This document shows, piece by piece, positions 1 to 43,440 of a stretch of 64,000 nt of DNA. The DNA comes from Micromonospora pallida. GTDB lineage: Bacteria > Actinomycetota > Actinomycetes > Mycobacteriales > Micromonosporaceae. Within the stretch, counting starts at the first letter, position 1. Each line of letters opens with the position of its first letter. A model generated the notes under the pieces. That model was not told where the DNA came from. It saw only the letters and a list, made by a program, of their open reading frames with translations, and searched no databases. The translations under genes and the position numbers were made by a program. The DNA lies in the NCBI RefSeq assembly GCF_900090325.1, contig NZ_FMHW01000003.1:1-64000 (forward strand). The letters are read 5' to 3'.

Positions 1-249
1 CTGGAGGCGAACTACTCCACCGTCGACGACGTCGACCACGCGATGAAGCTGGGCTGCGGCTACCCGACGGGTCCCTTCGAACTGCTGGACACGGTCGGCC
101 TGGACGTCGCCCTGGACACCCAGCGGGCGCTCTACCGGGAGCTGCGGGAGCCCGGCCTGGCGCCCGCGCCGCTGCTGGAACACCTAGTCACCGCCGGCTA
201 CCTGGGCCGCGAAAGCGGTCGCGGGTTCCGCGACCACACCCAGCGCTGA
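1..249 (+). CDS. 3-hydroxyacyl-CoA dehydrogenase, C-terminal fragment
   Basis: Open at the left edge of the window; 82 residues followed by TGA at 247-249. The motif GCGYPTGPFELLDTVGLD and the late GRESGRGF are typical of the C-terminal helical domain of NAD-dependent 3-hydroxyacyl-CoA dehydrogenases (PaaH/Hbd type), which oxidise 3-hydroxyacyl-CoA, often 3-hydroxybutyryl-CoA, in fatty-acid or butanoate metabolism. The NAD-binding Rossmann domain lies outside the window. The frame is clean, unlike the genes that follow. The exact substrate cannot be judged from the fragment. Confidence 0.8.
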   Translation: MEANYSTVDDVDHAMKLGCGYPTGPFELLDTVGLDVALDTQRALYRELREPGLAPAPLLEHLVTAGYLGRESGRGFRDHTQR

Positions 250-336
250 CCGCACCGGGCACGGCCGTCGCGGCAGCGCGGTGGCCGGACCCGGCCGTGG
301 TGCTGGGGGTCGGCGCACGCCCGTACGCTGGACGGC

Positions 337-661
337 GTGAGCCCGCGTCGCAACCGCCCCCGCCGTGACGACACCGCCCACCTGGACTCCGACCGGGCCC
401 GTCACGGTGTCCCCAGCGTGGAGCAGTGGCGGGACGGCGAGTGGCAGGTACGCGGCATCAGCGGCGGCGCGTCGACCAAGACGTACCGCTGCCCCGGGTG
501 TGACCAGGAGATCCGCCCGGGGTGGCGCACCTGGTGGCCTGGCCGGCGGACGGGCGGGGCGACCTCACCGACCGCCGGCACTGGCACAGCGGGTGCTGGC
601 GGGCCCGGACCGGCGCGGGCCGGTGGTCCAGCGCGGACGCGGCGCCCCGCGCCACGGTTGA
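337..661 (+). pseudogene. small zinc-ribbon protein, frame broken by two apparent G losses
   Basis: GTG start at 337 gives MSPRRNRPRRDD..., with a VEQWRDGEW segment and a CPGCDQEIRPG zinc-ribbon-like motif. After 'cccgggg' near 517-521 the sense moves to another frame (AHLVAWPADGRGDLTDRRHW); near 606-612 it moves again (DRRGPVVQRGRGAPRHG, stop 659-661). Adding one G to each run restores a single protein of about 108 residues. From memory, close homologues in Micromonospora are annotated vaguely as ATP/GTP-binding proteins; no nucleotide-binding motif is visible. Homopolymer sequencing error is likelier than a real pseudogene, because the next three genes show the same pattern. Confidence 0.65.
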
Positions 662-726
662 GCGATCTCGGTCACCCGGTGGCCCCTCGCCCGACGCGCG
701 GACCGCTCAGGCGGGAGACTGGACGG

Positions 727-1589
727 GTGAGCACCCCGATCCGTGCCTCCTCGATCCTGCCGGGGCACCGCGAGGACATCGAACTGCACACCGCGGACGG
801 CCTGACCCTCGTCGGCGAGCTGGCCCGACCGCTCGACCGCGCGCCGGTGGCCACCCTGGTCTGCCTGCATCCGCTGCCCACCCACGGCGGATGATGGACA
901 GCCACGTCCTCCGCAAGGCCGCCTGGCGGCTGCCGGCCCTGGCCGACCTGGCCGTGCTCCGGTTCAACACGCGGGGCACCAGCAGCGTCCGGGGCAGCAG
1001 CGAGGGCGAGTTCGACAACGCGGTCGGCGAGCGGTACGACGTGGCCGCCGCGATCGAGTACGCCGAGTTCGCCGAGCTGCCGAACGTCTGGCTGCTCGGC
1101 TGGTCCTTCGGTACTGACCTGACCCTGAAGTACGGCTGCGACCCGGCGGTCACCGGTGCCATCCTGCTCTCCCCGCCACTGCGCTTCTCCACCCGGAGGA
1201 CCTGGCCGTCTGGGCCGCCAACGGCAAGCCGTTGGTCGCGCTGGTGCCCGAGTTCGACGACTACCTCCGCCCGGACGAGGCCCGGCAGCGGTTCGCGGCG
1301 GTGCCGCAGGCCGAGGTGGTGGGGTGCCCGGGGCGAAGCACCTCTGGGTGGGGGACGCCGAGACCGTCCTCGACGAGGTGGTCCGTCGGTGAACCCGGCG
1401 GTGCCGGTGCCGCTGCCCACCACCTGGGACGGCCCGATGGAGACCGGTGACGCCAGCACATACGCCGATCGGACGGTGGCCTCGTTCGCCGACCGGCCGG
1501 TCCCGGCCCGCCCGCGAACTGACCCAACTCCTGAGCTGAAGCCGGCCGGTGTCGCTGGCCGCCGATCCCTGAGCTGCCCCAACCCCTGA
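727..1589 (+). pseudogene. alpha/beta hydrolase, frame broken at several homopolymers
   Basis: GTG at 727 starts [20 protein letters not shown], a beta-strand entry typical of alpha/beta hydrolases; [12 protein letters not shown] carries the oxyanion-side HP motif. The frame breaks at about 890 and continues as [24 protein letters not shown] and the nucleophile elbow [10 protein letters not shown] (GxSxG). Further breaks near 1192 (CCC run), 1320 (GGGG) and 1388 (GG) separate [39 protein letters not shown] and [18 protein letters not shown] fits the region of the catalytic His. Each break is repaired by one base. The substrate is unknown. The true stop is uncertain; 1589 is the stop in the last recovered frame. 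Confidence 0.65.
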
Positions 1590-1656
1590 GCGGACCCGGG
1601 CCCGCGACCGGTCGGGTGCCGGCCGACCCGCGCCGGACCGCCACCCGGCCCGGGGG

Positions 1657-2594
1657 TCAGCGGCCCAGGGCGTCGATCGTCAGCCGGGTGGCCTCGGCGA
1701 TCAGGGCGTCGTCGGGTTTCGCGTCCCGGACGTCCCGGCTGGAGAGCACGGCCATCACCACCGGGGCGCCTCGGCGGCCAGAGCACCGCGATGTCGTTCC
1801 GGGTGCCGAAGCCGGCCGTGCCGGTCTTGTCGCCGACCGTCCAGCCGGCCGGCACGCCGGCCCGGACCAGCTTGTGGCCGGTGGTGTTGCGGCGCAGCCA
1901 GTCGGTGAGCAGCGCGCGGTCCTCGGCGCTCAGCGCGTCGCCCAGCACGTACGCGTGCAGGTTGGTGGCGAGCGCCCGGGGCGTGCTGGTGTCCCGGTCG
2001 TCGCCCGGGGCGGTCCGGTTGAGGGCGGGCTCGGTACGCGCCGGCCTGGTCGTCCGGTCGCCGAGTGCCCGCAGGTGTCCGGCGAACCCGGGCGGTCCGC
2101 CGAGTTCGGCCAGCACCAGGTTGGCCGCGGTGTTGTCGCTGTACCGCACCGCCGCGTCGGCGAGGTCGCGCAGCGGCATGCCGGTGGTGACGTGCCGCTC
2201 GGTGACCGGGGAGTGCGGCACCAGGTCGTCCCGGGTGTAGCGGACGACCCGGCCGAGTTCCGCGGTGCTGGTCGCGTCCAGCAGGGCGGCGGCGGCCAGC
2301 GCCTTGAACGTGGAGGCGTAGGCGAAGCGCTCGTCGGGGCGGTGGACGACGGTGACGCCGGAACCGGTGTCGACCGCGTAGACGCCGAGCCGTGCCCCGA
2401 ACCGTGCCTCCAGCGCACCGAACCCCGGGTCCACGGCCGGTGTCGACCCGGTGGTGCTGGTCGGTACCGGAGCGATGGCGTTGGTCGGTGCCGGAGCAGG
2501 GAGGCGGGTACCCCGTGCCGCAGGCGACCAACCCGAGGAGCCCGGCGGCGGTGGCACCCGCCACCGCCAGCCGAACGCGTTTCGTCGGATTCAT
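1657..2594 (-). pseudogene. class A beta-lactamase lipoprotein, two apparent frameshifts
   Basis: ATG at 2594 gives [20 protein letters not shown] with lipobox LVAC/G, so the protein should be exported and lipid-anchored. After a frame break around 2495-2505 the mature enzyme shows all class A serine beta-lactamase motifs: STFK (S70xxK), YSDN (SDN130), the EPALN stretch after ART (E166xxLN) and DKTGT (K234TG). A second break near 1772 separates VLWPP from [12 protein letters not shown]; restoring one base takes the frame to the stop at 1657-1659. Expected length is about 310 residues. It would hydrolyse beta-lactams outside the membrane. Single-base loss in runs suggests consensus error, not decay. 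Confidence 0.8.
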
Positions 2595-2608
2595 GCCAGG
2601 AGTATCGG

Positions 2609-4563
2609 TTACTCCGACTCGACCGTTACCTTCGTCGGCTTCGCGCTGCGCTCGTCGGTGGTCGGCTTGGTCGGTCGCTTCCCGCCCTCACCGGTGCTGG
2701 TGATCTTCGTCGGGGTGGCACCGCGGCCTCCCTCACCGGGAACCGCCGCCACCGTCGGCTCACCGTCGACCCCCGAGCTGGCGGCCCCGCCGTCCAGGGT
2801 GGTCACCGGTTCGGCCACCGGCCGGGCCTTCGGCTTGCCGGCGTCGCCGTCGGCGGCGACCTCGGCGATCCGGCGGGCCTCCGCCTGCGCCCGGGCCGCC
2901 GACTCGCCGGCCTGCCGGACCGAGGTGTCCGTCTCGGCCAGCCGGGACCGCTCGCCGCCGAGCTGCTGACGGATCTCCTCCAGGGCCTGCTGGAGGTCGT
3001 CGGACTCCTGCCGGGACTGCCAGGTCTCCTGCCGCAGGTCGGCCAGCTCCTGCTGGGCCTGGGCGATCTCCAGCATCACCTGGGCCAACTGCTGCCGGCC
3101 GGCGGCGACCTCCTGCTGGGTGGCGGCCAGGTGCTGCTGGGTCGTCGCCAGGTGCTGCTGGGTGGTGGCCGCGTACTCCTCGAACTGCCGGCGGGACGTC
3201 ACCATGTGCTCGTCGGCCTTGCGCCGCTTCGTGACGGCCTCCGCCTCGGCCTCGCGGAGCACCTGCTCGGCCCGCTCCTCGGCCTCACGGCGCAGCGTCG
3301 CCACCTCCTGCTCGGTGTCCCGGCGCAGCGTCGTGACCTCCTGTTCGGCGGTCTGCCGCAGGGCCGCCGCAGCCTGTTCGGCCTCCTGCCGGATCCCGGC
3401 CGCCCCCTGCTCGATCTCGTCGCGGCGGGCGGTGTACTCCCGCTCCAGCTCCTCGCGGCGGGTCGTGAACTCCCGGTCGGCGGTCTCCCGGCGCTGGGTC
3501 AGCTCCCGCTCGGCCGTCTCCCGCTGCGCCTTGAGCTCCTTCTCCACCCCGGCCCGCCAGGTGCCCAGTTCCTGCTGGGTCTGCGCGCGGGCCTGCTGGA
3601 CGTACGCCTCGGTTTCGGTGCGCATCCGCTGCACGTACGCCTCGGTCTCGGCCCGGTTGCGCTTGGCCGTCTCGGCCGTCTGCTTGGTGAGCTGGTCCGC
3701 TTCCTGCTGGGCCTTGGCCCGGGTGGCCTGCGCCGCCTCGGCGGCCTGGTCGGTGAGTTTCTTGGCCTCCTGCTGGGCCTTGGCGTGCGTCGCCCGGCCG
3801 GCCTCGGTGGCCTGGTCGGTCAGGCGCTTGGCGTCCTGCTGCGCCTTCAGATGCACCTCTTTGGCCGCGTCGCGGAGCTGGGTGGCCTCCTGCTGGGCCT
3901 TGGCGTGCGCCTCCCGGGCCGCCTCGCGCAGCTTCGTCGCCTCCTGCTGAGCCCGGTTGTGGATCTCCTTGGCGGCGTCGCGGAGCTGGGTGGCCTCCTG
4001 CTGGGCCTTGGTCAGCGCGGTCTGCGCGGCCTCCCGGATCCGGGCCGCCTCCTCCCGGGCGGCGGTGACCGTCGCCTCCGCCTCGGCCCGTCGGGCCTTG
4101 CTGTGCTGCTCCTCCTCGGCCCGCCGGACGGTCAGCGCGAGTTCGAAGTCCTTCAGGGCCTTCGCGGCCTGCTCACGGGCTTCCTCGATGATGTGCTCGG
4201 CCGCCGTGCGCCGCGCCTCGATCTCTTCGCTGGCCGAGGCGAGGATGTCGTCGGCCTGTTCCTCGGCGAGGGTGAGGATCTGCTCCACCCGGGGCCCCAG
4301 ATGCCGGAACGACGCCCGGTCCACCACGGCGTTCTGCTTACGCACCTGCGCCAGGTCGCGCTGGAGCACCTCCACCTGGCCCGCGAGCTTGTGGATGTGT
4401 GTGTACGCCTGTTCCCGTTCGGCTGTCAGCGCCGCGATCTCGTGCTCGGCACGAGCCACGTACCGGTCGACCTGTCGTTTCTCGTACCCCGCAGGGCGGA
4501 CTCGAAGCTGGGCTCCGTGGTCACTTCCCCGCCGAGAGCGAACAGTTCCTCGCCGTGCGACAT
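2609..4563 (-). CDS. long coiled-coil protein with N-terminal DivIVA-type motif (one apparent frameshift)
   Basis: ATG at 4563 (MSHGEELFALGGE) leads to a DivIVA-like segment split by a frame break at about 4489-4494: restoring one G gives ALRGYEKRQVDRYVARAEHE, the RGYxxxQVDxY pattern of DivIVA/Wag31 proteins. The rest is almost unbroken charged coiled coil with repeating AKAQQEA(T/K)QL(R/T)D units and ends in a lysine/threonine-rich tail (TKITSTGEGGKRPTKPTTD). Such proteins act as polar or cytoskeletal scaffolds in actinomycetes (DivIVA, Scy and FilP-like); the role here is inferred. Its neighbour at 4746-6088 has the same architecture. A translation starting at 4459 would miss the DivIVA motif. 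Confidence 0.75.
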
Positions 4564-4670
4564 ATCCCCATCCTCACACGGCTTCGGCCCCGGTGCGGCA
4601 ATACGCACGGCGACGATGGGACCCAGTTCACCCGCGCGGGGGGAGGTGTCGATCGGCTTCGGTGGGCAGC

Positions 4671-4716
4671 GTACGGCGCGGGGTGCACCCGTTCAAGGTG
4701 ACACCCCGCGCCGTAC
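4671..4716 (-). terminator. perfect 15-bp hairpin between the two coiled-coil genes
   Basis: Arms 4671-4685 and 4702-4716 are perfect inverted repeats around a 16-nt loop. It lies just past the stop of the leftward gene at 4746 and ahead of the gene at 2609-4563. There is no T-tract, so termination is inferred from position and stem strength. Confidence 0.6.
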
Positions 4717-4745
4717 GACTCATGCCCCGATCGATGCGCGGGCCG

Positions 4746-6088
4746 TCAGCTGGACTTCTCCGCGGACACCGGCTCGGCGGCGGCCTCCTCGGCCTTCTTG
4801 GGGGCGGGCGTCTCGGCCTTCTGCTGCGGGGGCACGCCGGCACGATGCCGGCGAGACCGGAGAGCATCTGACCGAGTTGCGCGGTGACCGCGTCCTTCTG
4901 GCGGGTGAGGTCGTCGACCTCCCGACGCGCGGCCTGGGTGGTCAGCTCCGCCTCGGTGCGCGCCTCGGTGAGCAGGCGCTGCGCCTCGGCCTTCGCCTCG
5001 TTGAGGGTCTTCTCGGCCAGTGACTTGGCCTTGTCGACGGTGTCGGCGGCGGTGCGCTCGGACTCGACCCGGCGGGTCTCGGCGCGCTGCTCGATTTCCT
5101 TGGCGCGCTCCTGCGCGGCGCGGGCCCGCTGCTCGGCCTCGCCGACCAGCTTCTGGGTCTGTGCGACCTGCGCGGCGTGCCGCTCGGACTCCTCGCGCTC
5201 GGCCTTCTCGCGCCGCTCGGCGAGCTGCAGCTCCAGGGCCTGGAGGTCCTTGTCCCGCTTGTCGCGGGCGTCGGTGAGGAGCTTGGTCGCCTCGGCGCGC
5301 TTCTCCTCGGCCTCGCGGGCGGCCTTGGCCCGCTGCTGGGTGATCTCCCGTTCGGCGGTGGCGCGCAGGGTGGCCACCTCACGCTCGACAGTGGACTTCA
5401 GCTCGGCGACCTCGTGCGCGGTGACCGTGCGGAGCTGCTTGGTCTCCCGCTCGGCGTCGGCGCGCAGCGTGTCGGCCTCGCGGCGGGCCTGCACCCGGAC
5501 CTCGGCCGCCTCCCGCTCCGCGGTGGTGCGGACGCCGCCCGCCTCCCGCTCGGCGGTGGCCTTCATCGCCGCCGCCTCGGCCCGCGCCTTGTCGGTGATC
5601 TCGCGGGCTTCGAGGCGGGCCGCGGAGAGGATGCCCTCGGACTCGCGCTTGGCCTCGTTGCGGTGGTCGTTGGCCTGCTCCTCGGCGAGCCGCAGGATCT
5701 GCTCGACCCGGGTACCGAGGCCGGAGAGGGTCGGCCGGTTGTTCTCCTCGAGCTGCTTGTTGGTCTCGGCGAGCTTCTGCTCCAGCGCCGCGAGCCGCTG
5801 CTCAGCCTGGCGGAGCCGACGCTGTGCGTCGTTCATCCGCTGCTCGGCCTCGGCGCGGGCCTGCTCGGACTGGGTCAGCGCGGCGGTCAGCCGTCCGATG
5901 AAGTCGTCGACCTGTCCTGTGTTGTATCCGCGCAGGCCAACGGTGAAATCCGGCTGGGAGTTCGCGTTATCGAAGAACGCGAGAGGGGAGGACTGCTGCT
6001 GGGCATTGGCCCATACTCGCAGACGCCCCGGGGTGCTTCGCAAGAGCGGTGCGGAGCTTTTTGTCCTCTTTACCTGGTCACCTCCCAC
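4746..6088 (-). CDS. DivIVA-motif coiled-coil protein (one apparent frameshift near its end)
   Basis: The core sequence VWANAQQQSSPLAFFDNANS followed by FTVGLRGYNTGQVDDFIGRL has the LRGYxxxQVDDF signature of DivIVA-family polar proteins. Continuous heptad-rich coiled coil follows (AEREAGGVRTTAEREAAEVR and similar units). Near 4843-4846 one G seems missing; restoring it replaces an arginine/proline-rich tail with VPPQQKAETPAPKKAEEAAA and a stop at 4746-4748. The start is uncertain: the in-frame GTG at 6088 is used, but TTG at 6043 is also possible. It is probably a second polar-growth or septation scaffold, paralogous to the neighbour at 2609-4563 (both also share a RVEQIL.LAEEQA segment). Confidence 0.7.
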
Positions 6089-6365
6089 GCGCTCGGTGGC
6101 CGGTACCGGACAGGCGATCTTGGCAGCTCCGGGCCGGGGTGTGCGGCGTACCTGGTAGACCGGAAAAGAACCGCCGCCCGCCGGGTCGCCGTTTTTCGGG
6201 TCACCGTCGGTATCGATCGATTCGGTGCCGGTCGAGCACCGACGAAAGCCAATGCCGGACACGCAATGACGATCCGGTTCCCCCGGAGGTCCTCGATGGC
6301 CGCCACCGGCCGACCGCGTCCGGCGCCGCGCGGCGGAGCCCGGCTCCGGGACCTCGATTCGATCG

Positions 6366-6418
6366 GTGGCCGGGGCCCCGGCCCGACGCTGAGCGGTGAC
6401 CGGGGCCCCGGCGGCCAC
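6366..6418 (-). terminator. GC-rich hairpin after mce
   Basis: Two copies of 'ccggggccccgg' flanked by 'gtggc' and 'ggccac' can pair over 6366-6383 and 6401-6418. It sits directly downstream of the leftward mce stop (6420). The rest of the gap 6089-6365 shows no gene and presumably holds the promoter of the coiled-coil gene. Confidence 0.5.
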
Positions 6419-6419
6419 C

Positions 6420-6884
6420 TCAGGCGGGCTGGACCAGCTCGACGAGGACGCCGCCGGCGTCCTTCGGGTGGACGAAGTTGATCCGGGAGTCGGCGGTGCC
6501 CCGGCGCGGGGTGTCGTAAAGCAACCGCAGGCCGCGCTCGCGCAGCGCCGCGCAGGCCGCGTCGATGTCGGTGACGGTGTACGCGACCTGCTGCACCCCC
6601 GGCCCGTTGCGGTCCAGGAACTTCGCGATCGTCGACTCCGGAGTGAGCGGGGCGAGCAGTTGCAGGCAGCCACCCTCGGTGGTCGGGCCGACCGCCAGCA
6701 TCGCCTCGCGGACCCCCTGCTCGGTGTTGGTCTCGGTGTGCACGCAGCGCATGCCGAAGGTTTGCTGGTAGAAGTCGATCGCCTTGTCAAGGTCGGCGAC
6801 CGCCACACCCACGTGGTCGATTCGGCGGATACCGATGTCTGTGACGTAGTCCGCAGCGGGCTTGTCGGGGGAGATCTCTGCCAT
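6420..6884 (-). CDS. mce: methylmalonyl-CoA epimerase
   Basis: 154 residues from ATG at 6884. RIDHVGVAVADLDKAIDFY at the N-terminus and the closing HPKDAGGVLVELVQP are signatures of the vicinal-oxygen-chelate fold epimerases that interconvert (2R)- and (2S)-methylmalonyl-CoA in propionyl-CoA metabolism, between propionyl-CoA carboxylase and methylmalonyl-CoA mutase. The metal ligands are expected to include the H of IDHVG and the E of LVEL. Longer upstream starts were rejected because they read into phage DNA right of 6901. The start is 16 bp from the prophage boundary, so the insertion replaced the upstream sequence. A leaderless start is possible (see promoter entry). Confidence 0.92.
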   Translation of the reverse strand: MAEISPDKPAADYVTDIGIRRIDHVGVAVADLDKAIDFYQQTFGMRCVHTETNTEQGVREAMLAVGPTTEGGCLQLLAPLTPESTIAKFLDRNGPGVQQVAYTVTDIDAACAALRERGLRLLYDTPRRGTADSRINFVHPKDAGGVLVELVQPA

Positions 6885-6921
6885 GGCGTTAGTCTGACCG
6901 AACAGTCGTTCGGCTGACCAG
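6885..6921 (-). promoter_or_regulatory. candidate mce promoter with palindromic operator at the phage attachment point
   Basis: On the minus strand CAGACT (fits nAnnnT) lies 6 nt before the mce ATG, suggesting a leaderless transcript. Upstream is the perfect palindrome CCGAAC-agtc-GTTCGG at 6898-6913, and TGGTCA lies 18 nt from the -10. The palindrome straddles the host/phage boundary at 6900/6901, so the -35 side is supplied by sequence shared with the phage. Regulator unknown. Confidence 0.45.
6901..6920. other. left prophage boundary (attL), start of the shared core
   Basis: Identity between the host-proximal junction and the phage-phage junction at 42328 begins exactly here: bases 6896-6900 (host) differ from 42323-42327 (phage right end). 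The first bases, 'aacagtcgtt', are self-complementary around 'agtc'. The core's right limit cannot be set because the other host junction is not in the window. No tRNA gene is present at the site. Confidence 0.8.
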
Positions 6922-7062
6922 GCCGTTCGTGCGACCTCTCCGGCGCGCCCGGCCGCCTCCCGGCCGAAGGGCCGATCCGCCGCCGAGTCCACCCGGCCGA
7001 CGTCCTCCGTTCCGGCGAGCCGTCGCCGCCCCACCCCGATCAACCGCCCCGTCGGCCGATAG
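6901..7062 (+). pseudogene. orphan 3' end of the repressor-like HTH gene left at attL
   Basis: In the phage-phage junction the HTH gene 42091-42489 continues through the attachment point. Here only its last 53 codons and stop (to 7062) remain; the upstream host sequence in the same frame has a TGA at 6894-6896, so it is not expressed as part of a protein. It is proline/serine/arginine-rich with no recognisable domain. Confidence 0.75.
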
Positions 7063-7167: not shown

Positions 7168-8013
7168 ATGCTCACCGTAACCCCAGCCCATGCACCGCAC
7201 TCGCACGAAATGATCCGCGCGTTCGTGCGGCACCTACAAGATCTTCGCCGCGCCGAGGCGACCGTCGACACGTACGTCGGCATGCTGGCCCGGCTCGACC
7301 GGACCCTCCCCGAGGGCCTCGCGTACGCGTGCGCCGACGAGCTGCGCGCGCAGATTTACGTTGAGGGCCGTAAGCCGGCCACGGTGGCGCTCTACCGGGC
7401 CGCAGCCAAGGCCTTCTTCGCCTGGGCGACCGACGAGCACGACCCGTGGCTAGATTACGACCCGTCCCGGCAACTGCCGCGCGCCCGGGTCCGCCAGCGC
7501 ACCCCCCGCCCATGCACACACGAAGAGCTGGCCGACATCCTCGCCCGCGCGCAGGATCCGTGCCGGGTGTGGTACCTGCTCGCCGCCGGCTGCGGACTGC
7601 GGTGCGTTGAGATTTCCCGACTCGACCGCGCCGACGTCACCGAGCACGTGGTTTACATCCTCGGCAAGGGCGACAAGGAACGCACCGTGCCCACCCATCC
7701 GGCCGTCTGGGCGGCGATCCGCGACCTCCCAGCCGGGCCCATCGCCCGCCGGTACTACGACACTGCCCGCGCGAACCGCAGAGACGTCCAGGGGCGCGGA
7801 AACCGGCACCTCGCGGTACTCGGGCACCCCAGCGTCACGATGCACCGTCTACGGCACTGGTACGGGACGTACGTGTACCAGGCGGCGGGCGGGGATCTGC
7901 GTGTCGTTCAGGATCTGCTCGGCCACGCCTCACCGAACACCACCCAGGTGTACGTGGCCGCCGCGGCGGGGGCGGCGGCGGCTGCGGTGCGCGCCCTGCC
8001 ACTGCCGGTCTGA
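7168..8013 (+). CDS. int: phage tyrosine recombinase (integrase)
   Basis: 281 residues, RBS 'gggagg' 7 bp before ATG 7168. The N-terminal SAM-like core-binding domain (about 10-95: RHLQDLRRAEATVDTYVGML) is followed by the catalytic domain with the full set R145 (GCGLRCVEISRL), K170 (GKGDKERTVP), H226-x-x-R229 (MHRLRHW), H253 (LLGHAS) and Y262 (TQVYV). It lacks a long arm-binding extension, so it is a short XerC/D-like phage integrase. It lies next to the attachment point, as expected for the enzyme that joins attP to the site upstream of mce. In the circular phage it is the next gene after the repressor-like HTH gene, in the same direction, 105 bp away. Confidence 0.93.
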   Translation: MLTVTPAHAPHSHEMIRAFVRHLQDLRRAEATVDTYVGMLARLDRTLPEGLAYACADELRAQIYVEGRKPATVALYRAAAKAFFAWATDEHDPWLDYDPSRQLPRARVRQRTPRPCTHEELADILARAQDPCRVWYLLAAGCGLRCVEISRLDRADVTEHVVYILGKGDKERTVPTHPAVWAAIRDLPAGPIARRYYDTARANRRDVQGRGNRHLAVLGHPSVTMHRLRHWYGTYVYQAAGGDLRVVQDLLGHASPNTTQVYVAAAAGAAAAAVRALPLPV

Positions 8014-41553: not shown

Positions 41554-41717
41554 TTCTGCTGCCGGGCCGGCGTCCGGCGCGGATCTCACGGACGCCCGAC
41601 TCGGGGACTAGGGCCGCTTCGGGCTACCGGGCCTGACGGGTACGGGGCTGGGCGGCGTGCGCGGCGTGCGCGGCGTCGTCGACGGGCGAGGGTTGCCGGG
41701 GCCCTTCGGACCGGGGC

Positions 41718-41954
41718 TCACGCGGCCGACGCCATCTGGCGGGGGAACAGGTCGGTCACGGGCACCGACAGCGCGACGGCGATCCGGTCCAGGTCGGCAA
41801 GAGTGAGAGGCACCGTGCCGCTGAGCCGACGCGACACGTAGACGTGAGTCACGCCCATCGCCTCGGCGACCGCTCGGCCGGTCATCTTCTGCCGACCCAT
41901 CTCCGCCCGGATCTCGCCGAGAACTACCTCGGTGAGCGTTGCTGGCTGGGTCAT
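41718..41954 (-). CDS. Cro-like HTH protein
   Basis: 78 residues from ATG 41954, apparently leaderless. An XRE-type helix-turn-helix spans about 23-70: MTGRAVAEAMGVTHVYVSRR, LTLADLDRIAVALSVPVTDL. It resembles the divergent 132-codon HTH protein over this whole region, including the recognition helix (YVSRRL-G) and the PVTDLFP/TVTDLLP end, so both likely read the same operators. First gene of the leftward, probably lytic, transcription unit: hence Cro-like (inference). Confidence 0.75.
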   Translation of the reverse strand: MTQPATLTEVVLGEIRAEMGRQKMTGRAVAEAMGVTHVYVSRRLSGTVPLTLADLDRIAVALSVPVTDLFPRQMASAA

Positions 41955-41961
41955 GACCGAT

Positions 41962-41990
41962 ACCTTCTAACGGTCAGCGTTAGATGTCAA
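41962..41990 (-). promoter_or_regulatory. leftward promoter of the switch
   Basis: Consensus -35 TTGACA (complement of 41985-41990), 17-bp spacer, -10 GAAGGT (41962-41967), then 7 nt to the ATG of the Cro-like gene. Predicts a leaderless mRNA. The spacer is filled by operator 1. Confidence 0.7.
41966..41984. promoter_or_regulatory. operator 1 (leftward promoter)
   Basis: TCTAACG-gtcag-CGTTAGA: perfect 7-bp inverted repeat with 5-bp spacer, lying inside the leftward promoter spacer. Confidence 0.75.
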
Positions 41991-41998
41991 GGGTAGAT

Positions 41999-42017
41999 CC
42001 TAACGGTGTCCGTTAGA
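41999..42017. promoter_or_regulatory. operator 2 (between the promoters)
   Basis: CCTAACG-gtgtc-CGTTAGA: inverted repeat with 6 of 7 pairs, centred 33 bp (about three helical turns) from operator 1. Confidence 0.72.
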
Positions 42018-42054
42018 TCAGACCGCGAAGCGTGGGCGGTCGCTCACAGCACCC

Positions 42055-42083
42055 TTGCTTTGGAACGCTCAGCGTTAGATACT
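42055..42083 (+). promoter_or_regulatory. rightward promoter of the switch
   Basis: -35 TTGCTT (42055-42060), exact 17-bp spacer, -10 GATACT (42078-42083), then 7 nt to ATG 42091, again leaderless. The spacer is operator 3, so binding there would block the promoter. Confidence 0.68.
42061..42079. promoter_or_regulatory. operator 3 (rightward promoter)
   Basis: TGGAACG-ctcag-CGTTAGA: right half identical to operators 1 and 2, left half imperfect, suggesting weaker binding. Centred 62 bp (about six turns) from operator 2. Confidence 0.6.
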
Positions 42084-42090
42084 TGCGCTC

Positions 42091-42489
42091 ATGGAGACTG
42101 CGACCCGCGCCCACCTCCGCCACCTCGTGGCCGAAGAGATCGGCGCCCACCTCGGCCGACGCCGCATGAGCGGCGCGAAGCTGGCCCGCGCCATTGAGCG
42201 GTCCGAGATGTACGTCTCCCGGCGCCTGCGAGGTGAGACGGCGTTCGACCTGGACGACCTGGAGCGCATCGCGGAAGTGCTGGGAGTCACGGTTACCGAT
42301 CTGCTGCCAGCGGATAAGGTGCGTCCTAACAGTCGTTCGGCTGACCAGGCCGTTCGTGCGACCTCTCCGGCGCGCCCGGCCGCCTCCCGGCCGAAGGGCC
42401 GATCCGCCGCCGAGTCCACCCGGCCGACGTCCTCCGTTCCGGCGAGCCGTCGCCGCCCCACCCCGATCAACCGCCCCGTCGGCCGATAG
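42091..42489 (+). CDS. repressor-like HTH protein spanning the attachment site
   Basis: 132 residues from leaderless ATG 42091. An XRE-type HTH occupies about 24-72 (MSGAKLARAIERSEMYVSRR, LDDLERIAEVLGVTVTDLLP), paralogous to the Cro-like protein. Codons 1-79 are at the phage right end; the junction at 42328 falls between P79 and N80, and residues 80-132 are the low-complexity Pro/Ser/Arg tail also present as an orphan at 6901-7062. This 132-residue product is the viral (circular or junction) form; in a prophage whose right end meets host DNA the tail would be replaced. No ssrA-like tag is seen at the C-terminus (INRPVGR). Confidence 0.75.
   Translation: METATRAHLRHLVAEEIGAHLGRRRMSGAKLARAIERSEMYVSRRLRGETAFDLDDLERIAEVLGVTVTDLLPADKVRPNSRSADQAVRATSPARPAASRPKGRSAAESTRPTSSVPASRRRPTPINRPVGR
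42328..42347. other. phage-phage junction (attP-like) inside the HTH gene
   Basis: Second occurrence of the sequence starting at 6901, preceded here by the phage right end ('gcgtcct') instead of host DNA. It is what a circular genome or a tandem prophage junction should contain. Confidence 0.85.
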
Positions 42490-42594
42490 TCGCCGGGTGA
42501 CATCCGTCACACCATCGACACCTGCACGTAACACGCCCGGGGCGGCGGGGCATCGCCGCGCCCGGGCGCTTGACCGCCAACGGGAGGCGATCCG

Positions 42595-43440
42595 ATGCTC
42601 ACCGTAACCCCAGCCCATGCACCGCACTCGCACGAAATGATCCGCGCGTTCGTGCGGCACCTACAAGATCTTCGCCGCGCCGAGGCGACCGTCGACACGT
42701 ACGTCGGCATGCTGGCCCGGCTCGACCGGACCCTCCCCGAGGGCCTCGCGTACGCGTGCGCCGACGAGCTGCGCGCGCAGATTTACGTTGAGGGCCGTAA
42801 GCCGGCCACGGTGGCGCTCTACCGGGCCGCAGCCAAGGCCTTCTTCGCCTGGGCGACCGACGAGCACGACCCGTGGCTAGATTACGACCCGTCCCGGCAA
42901 CTGCCGCGCGCCCGGGTCCGCCAGCGCACCCCCCGCCCATGCACACACGAAGAGCTGGCCGACATCCTCGCCCGCGCGCAGGATCCGTGCCGGGTGTGGT
43001 ACCTGCTCGCCGCCGGCTGCGGACTGCGGTGCGTTGAGATTTCCCGACTCGACCGCGCCGACGTCACCGAGCACGTGGTTTACATCCTCGGCAAGGGCGA
43101 CAAGGAACGCACCGTGCCCACCCATCCGGCCGTCTGGGCGGCGATCCGCGACCTCCCAGCCGGGCCCATCGCCCGCCGGTACTACGACACTGCCCGCGCG
43201 AACCGCAGAGACGTCCAGGGGCGCGGAAACCGGCACCTCGCGGTACTCGGGCACCCCAGCGTCACGATGCACCGTCTACGGCACTGGTACGGGACGTACG
43301 TGTACCAGGCGGCGGGCGGGGATCTGCGTGTCGTTCAGGATCTGCTCGGCCACGCCTCACCGAACACCACCCAGGTGTACGTGGCCGCCGCGGCGGGGGC
43401 GGCGGCGGCTGCGGTGCGCGCCCTGCCACTGCCGGTCTGA
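42595..43440 (+). CDS. int: tyrosine integrase, second copy
   Basis: Identical in sequence to 7168-8013 (all five catalytic residues present). Here it follows the complete repressor-like gene by 105 bp, as in the circular phage. Confidence 0.93.
   Translation: MLTVTPAHAPHSHEMIRAFVRHLQDLRRAEATVDTYVGMLARLDRTLPEGLAYACADELRAQIYVEGRKPATVALYRAAAKAFFAWATDEHDPWLDYDPSRQLPRARVRQRTPRPCTHEELADILARAQDPCRVWYLLAAGCGLRCVEISRLDRADVTEHVVYILGKGDKERTVPTHPAVWAAIRDLPAGPIARRYYDTARANRRDVQGRGNRHLAVLGHPSVTMHRLRHWYGTYVYQAAGGDLRVVQDLLGHASPNTTQVYVAAAAGAAAAAVRALPLPV

Follow-up and report, generated by a model that had tools for sequence, protein, structure and literature searches.

We analyzed a window of 64,000 nucleotides, which corresponds to positions 1 to 64000 of contig C3 (64,776 bp) in an assembly of 4 contigs and 7.76 Mb. 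By sequence, the relatives of the source genome are Micromonospora craterilacus and other Micromonosporaceae. Host DNA makes up positions 1 to 6900 of the contig; a phage unit 35,427 bp long follows, and a second phage copy, present over 22.4 kb, runs from 42328 to the contig end. This second copy matched the sequence from 6901 onward with 99.8% identity (1 mismatch and 42 gaps), the first 4,422 bp being an exact match. Over 6.9 kb, C3 differed from contig C2 by 16 gaps and 0 mismatches, which marks C3 as a contig of poor quality. A plain tandem duplication was rejected as the whole story because gaps account for most of the differences between the two phage copies, as would be seen in a long-read contig of poor quality; the tandem copies represent either a double lysogen (a tandem prophage) or the assembly of circular phage DNA. 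When 10 large ORFs were scanned, the families matched were tape measure, major tail, major head, portal and large terminase, indicating that the C3 phage is long-tailed. The host DNA carries an ORF on the minus strand (6420 to 6884) that, from its sequence by eye, we take to be mce (methylmalonyl-CoA epimerase).

The phage-phage junction at 42328 falls inside a helix-turn-helix (HTH) gene, rep (42091 to 42489, plus strand), whose viral form has 132 amino acids, with the HTH at residues 23 to 72 (Pfam) and a match to PHROG 4583 (3e-13). Downstream on the same strand lies int (42595 to 43440), encoding a tyrosine integrase of 281 amino acids (Pfam Phage_integrase, PF00589, 5.8e-17), and divergent from rep lies a cro-like HTH gene of 78 amino acids (41718 to 41954, minus strand; Pfam HTH_3, 7.6e-8; PHROG 4583, transcriptional repressor, 5e-13). 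A first-pass annotation had described these three ORFs in this arrangement and had placed the junction between codons 1 to 79 and 80 to 132 of rep; its coordinates were confirmed, as was its report that the last 53 codons of rep are orphaned at attL. The orphaned 3′ end and its stop (6901 to 7062, plus strand) are identical to 42328 to 42489, and an int copy adjoins attL (7168 to 8013, plus strand), parted there from rep.

An operator-like inverted repeat, CTAACG-N5-CGTTAG, occurs at 41967 to 41983, again at 42000 to 42016 and, with 2 mismatches, at 42062 to 42078 (all plus strand). The three repeats would be compatible with a cro/rep control region; at least 3 operator-like matches were also found in 4 of 100 shuffles of the window. 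A scan of 41700 to 42700 for sigma-70 promoters and terminators found none. Between rep and int, a strong hairpin (42534 to 42568; fold of 42487 to 42600, z = −2.8), with no T run behind it, sits in a stretch about 78% identical to the related prophage of genome G026.

The attP core, AACAGTCGTT (42328 to 42337, plus strand), is shared with attL (6901 to 6910, plus strand) and with an empty attB that is still present on contig C2 of the same assembly (C2:7249723-7249732). It is 10 bp long and spans rep codons 80 to 83, with 42328 as the first base of codon 80. Because attB is empty on C2, the attR of the C3 phage, which is absent from the assembly, could be predicted. Joining the left side of attP to the right side of attB gave the reading R-P-N-S-R-TAA, in which the T of the stop comes from the core and the AA from the host. 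The predicted prophage form of rep has 82 codons (42091 to 42336, plus strand) instead of 132, and the HTH domain falls entirely inside residues 1 to 82. The last 50 codons and the stop (42337 to 42489, plus strand), a tail rich in P, R, T and S that ends RRPTPINRPVGR, would be lost on integration, in line with the earlier proposal that the viral and prophage forms differ in their tails. The host did not restore the tail at the predicted attR, where TAA follows three core codons, and the crossover did not fall outside 42091 to 42489, the core lying within the gene; these were the two outcomes that the first-pass annotation had named as contrary to its reading. Host genes flank the core: the mce start codon is 16 bp away and, on the opposite side, the start codon of a thiolase gene, identified by Pfam on the copy in genome G107, follows after 36 bp. 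The assembly thus contains both an empty attB (on C2) and an occupied one (on C3), pointing to a mixed culture or frequent excision.

A natural attR at the same attB was found in G107, of the same genus (locus L036), where the rep of a related phage reads R-P-N-N-R-TAA before the same thiolase gene. The repressors of G107 and G272 (61% and 78% identical to that of the C3 phage) both support the reading frame up to the junction. The attB region was matched in all 160 genomes of the genus. Seven genomes in which the attB match is broken were fetched (L254 to L260, from G046, G045, G039, G016, G146, G014 and G095), and all 7 showed decayed attR scars in which only the last ~26 codons of a rep-like gene (..VRPNNR-stop) are left at the core, before the thiolase gene. 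ARAGORN found no tRNA gene in the window or at the attB locus (L015); across 38 att loci, the 4 tRNA genes that it detected all lay clear of the cores, the closest at about 130 nt (L070).

Next, we looked for rep and int in related genomes. In a search of 330 family genomes with rep, 17 genomes matched at 1e-9, the source genome included. Among 17 rep loci in other family genomes, int adjoined rep in 2 (L041 and L046) and was absent from the fetched flank in the remaining 15. Using an integrase alignment, we found members in all 16 rep-bearing genomes searched, those in G107 being distant ones only; at 1e-60, 28 of 354 family genomes matched. Fifteen genomes, chosen because of their integrase or as controls, were then searched for rep at a threshold of 1e-10, and 7 gave no match, which indicates that the integrase family occurs also without a recognized rep. 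Three of these 7 (G159, G305 and G187) carry a tail-like ORF ahead of int, and their rep may have diverged. In IMG/VR, a single-sequence search found no int relatives and the integrase alignment found 61 loci. Sampling across the class, we found matches in 2 of 394 genomes: the source genome and G091, of the same genus. In G029 (L216 on G029:C1 and L217 on G029:C2), a contig of 17,230 bp is 99.9% identical to two chromosomal stretches carrying the same integrase family with no rep match, possibly an integrative element or its free form.

To compare prophage ends, we assembled 18 distinct prophages of Micromonosporaceae, including the predicted one on C3. In 12 of them, rep and int lie 27 to 63 kb apart on one contig and strand; in four (G333, G173, G026 and G299), they lie on different contigs. 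We kept G272, where rep and int are ~100 kb apart across contig ends with another integrase between them, and G317, which has a 6-bp core and a hand-picked attL. We left out, for want of a core, G185, whose rep-like match ends in TGA, and the pairing of G272 with the second of its integrases; G107 (attR only) and G091 (a near-copy of G086) were also left out. In all 18 prophages, the rep frame ends at the edge of the short core shared by attL and attR, the core end lying −2 to +1 relative to the first base of the stop. The stops are TAA in 10 prophages, TAG in 8 and TGA in none; when G317 is set aside, TAR is used in 17 of 17. The stop triplets in the downstream host DNA were 14 TGA versus 12 TAR within 60 nt and 61 versus 24 within 300 nt, giving a P value of ~1e-6 to 1e-10 for 0 of 18 TGA if the sites are independent. 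The cores were first sought near the stop, which favors a stop-at-edge result; own versus mismatched attR/attL pairs served as the control: a shared run of at least 10 bp ending at the stop was present in 12 of 17 own pairs and in 0 of 272 mismatched pairs. With the search bias removed, no other shared run was as long as the one at the stop in 8 of 17 prophages; in G189 the run at the stop tied for longest, and in the other 8 it was not the longest. Cores were weak in 5 of these 17: 8 bp in G301a, G301b and G333, 9 bp in G086 and no run of at least 7 bp in G317.

At 11 of 18 sites, an ORF filter found a host gene co-directional with rep that starts no more than 140 nt from the stop (G107 standing for the C3 site). 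Such a gene was also seen by eye behind rep in G173 and G175 and was absent at 5 sites. Pfam named 9 of the 10 host genes tested behind a truncated rep; in several relatives, such as L045, L043, L049 and L036, the co-directional gene that begins immediately after it is metabolic (thiolases, phosphorylases and others). Transcription originating in the prophage may be needed for the expression of these genes.

The viral form was examined in IMG/VR contigs, where int lies downstream of a long repressor (114 to 166 amino acids from the match start) in 27 of 32 rep loci. In three of these intact cassettes int overlaps rep, and in the farthest it starts 818 nt after the rep stop. Two loci outside the 27 (L141 and L148) are short, without int and possibly cro. 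Short rep forms occurred in L130, L131 and L146, all at prophage ends, and those of L131 and L146 end as in G273 and G301b. The search for homologous cassettes suggested in the first-pass annotation thus yielded related phages with both repressor forms.

We compared 45 long tails, 18 from the prophages and 27 from the intact cassettes, leaving out L144 (a near-copy), L152 (a weak match), L141, L148 and the short forms L130, L131 and L146. The tails are basic and P/R-rich, and disorder was judged from composition only. The motif RRP is present in the last 30 residues of 30 of 45 tails (shuffles: mean, 8.5; largest, 18). Ala is the C-terminal residue in 20 of 45, versus 10% Ala overall in the tails (sequences related). 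The C3 phage tail ends -VGR, and the earlier statement that the viral C terminus has no ssrA-like tag was correct; yet 9 of 45 family tails end in -AA. The pN/pS ratio of the tail was 0.11 to 0.81 in 13 of 14 pairs (several pairs share a sequence), so most tails look maintained as protein. The C3 tail is the exception: compared with its nearest relative, in G026, its pN/pS was 1.09, with no protein-level constraint seen; the integrases of this pair had a pN of 0.26 and a pS of 0.48.

The position of attP inside rep, the attB and attL sites, the reading of the predicted attR and the two rep forms across relatives can all be read directly from the DNA. We conclude that the C3 locus very probably provides a long-tailed temperate phage with integration-dependent immunity, as a cro - rep[attP] - int cassette. 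The switch like that of mycobacteriophage BPs proposed in the first-pass annotation is thereby supported, through attP inside rep, the predicted attR and the cassettes in relatives. In the free phage, rep and int, which are co-directional and, we infer, co-transcribed, would yield the 132-amino-acid protein with its 50-residue P/R-rich tail, a form that is probably unstable or inactive. Int would recombine the attP core (42328 to 42337) with attB between the mce and thiolase genes. At attR, the rep frame would then meet TAA and give an 82-amino-acid protein with the whole HTH domain, likely the active repressor, and int would be left at the other prophage end, away from the rep promoter. The short form would thus repress and the long form would not, by proteolysis or by interference from the tail. 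Points that weigh against this reading are an attR that is predicted, a C3 tail with neither an ssrA-like end nor protein-level constraint, the 7 of 15 genomes in which rep had no match, the five weak cores and the promoter scan that found none.

This architecture could be right and the tail still be no degradation signal: it might lower repressor activity directly, through oligomerization or DNA binding, or have another role in the free phage, with integration removing it. We regard this as a serious possibility, though not the one we favor. It agrees with the -VGR end of the C3 tail, with the 36 of 45 family tails that do not end in -AA and with the basic, P/R-rich, RRP-containing composition. 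Against it, the frequencies of a last Ala and of -AA are far above 10% Ala (the sequences are related, and the probability is indicative only), and BPs relies on proteolysis, both BPs forms binding DNA alike in the excerpts of PMC4557955. It is also conceivable, but unlikely, that the overlap is incidental: attP would merely lie in an HTH gene, at its 3′ end, the two forms would both work and an ordinary cI/cro switch would be in place. The HTH domain is indeed whole in both forms, but in 18 distinct prophages, which occupy different host sites, the stop sits at the core edge and TGA is never used, and long tails recur in 27 intact cassettes; together, these edge stops and long tails argue that truncation is kept by selection.

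The reverse polarity, in which the long form is the working regulator of the free phage and is weakened by integration, would suit the low pN/pS of the tail in 13 of 14 pairs, since most relatives maintain the tail as protein. We consider it very improbable, however, because a lysogen needs a repressor and the paired prophages encode only the short form at attR; published relatives, as far as the excerpts describe them, work the opposite way. An assembly artifact, with 42328 joining unrelated pieces, might be suspected from the many single-base gaps of C3 and its end inside a second phage copy, but IMG/VR contigs of independent origin repeat the rep-tail-int order, other genomes, also independent, show rep truncated in the same way, and we give this explanation almost no weight.

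Under integration-dependent immunity, the position of the stop can be related to the integrase site. Aligned on the stop, the sites of the 18 prophages approximate YTAMC-N4-GKTAR, the rep stop falling in the host-side arm, GKTAR. Mirrored TAR was present in 11 of the 18 left arms of attP and in 8 of the 18 of attB; in the right arms, all 18 attB sites carry TAR and 0 of 18 attP sites do, because the rep frame is open there. In our reading, the integrase would prefer TA in each arm, and TA would be invariant where the arm must stop the repressor, the need of the integrase and selection being inseparable here. Somewhat short of even confidence, we propose that the half-site GKTAR doubles as the rep stop: attB would supply an in-frame TAA or TAG and attP a sense arm (TAT/TAC, or, for example, AAG or TCG), such that the specificity of Int itself would secure immunity at nearly any accepted site. 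If true, phages could move among many chromosomal sites with the switch intact, often putting a host gene behind rep. A stop formed at the junction is already known (excerpts of PMC8092301), and the excerpts of the papers compared (PMC4557955, PMC5559632, PMC8092301, PMC6109161, PMC9262239, PMC9934374, PMC5513430, PMC10865867 and PMC12243558) contained no description of the arm symmetry. A stop codon built into an integrase half-site is a sharp prediction, testable by a few base changes in attB, and the 18 prophages are material for how such phages switch integration sites without breaking the repressor switch. The resemblance of the operators, CTAACG-N5-CGTTAG, to attR, CTAAC-N4-GTTAA, had also suggested that the repressor binds att to control excision; this idea was dropped because operators and att arms do not covary in relatives (e.g., G175 and G333, by eye).

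Integration-dependent immunity is a known kind of lysogeny switch, very probably present here in a new phage group, a clade in Micromonosporaceae. It is described for mycobacteriophage BPs and clusters G, I, N and P (excerpts of PMC4557955 and PMC9262239) and reported for Gordonia phages (PMC5559632) and Bifidobacterium prophages (PMC6109161); for Streptomyces phage Tubberson, it was proposed by synteny (PMC12243558), all as given in excerpts. Within the literature searched, no report of it in Micromonospora was found, and the one paper matched on prophage repressors and attP in this genus dealt with conjugative elements. The closest matches to the C3 rep among phage records reach at most 42% identity over about half its length. 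In the excerpted accounts, 10 of 13 attB sites of Gordonia phages overlap tRNA genes (PMC5559632), and Tubberson has a serine integrase (PMC12243558), unlike the C3 phage with its tyrosine integrase. Among the M. abscessus prophages MabB, C, H, K, N and O, as excerpted from PMC8092301, several have a non-tRNA attB with short cores of 3 to 25 bp, in several clusters the stop is created by the first base of the bacterial DNA, and some repressors are without ssrA-like tags; truncation there removes 20 to 35 residues, in another host genus. One M. abscessus prophage, prophiGD44-1, resembles the C3 clade in reading ..GAGTA at the core with TAT on the phage side, but its rep has no match to the C3 rep at 1e-3 and its integrase is 28% identical. 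According to the excerpts, BPs has a 35-bp core over a tRNA gene, loses 33 residues, carries an ssrA-like viral tag and turns a Cys codon into a stop. The C3 phage, in contrast, has a 10-bp core with no tRNA gene found in the window or at L015, which sets it apart from the tRNA-linked, long-core subgroup of BPs type; it loses 50 residues, its stop is TAA and its tail ends -VGR rather than in an ssrA-like tag, a feature that is not universal among the known systems as excerpted. It shares with BPs the order cro/rep(attP)/int, an attP inside rep (core 42328 to 42337 within 42091 to 42489), a repressor shortened after integration by a stop at the junction (N-S-R-TAA in the predicted attR; natural in G107) and, by the excerpts, the completion of that stop by the host base next to the core. 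With rep next to int on one strand, a divergent cro and an integrase of the tyrosine family, it is organized as in the mycobacteriophage systems described.
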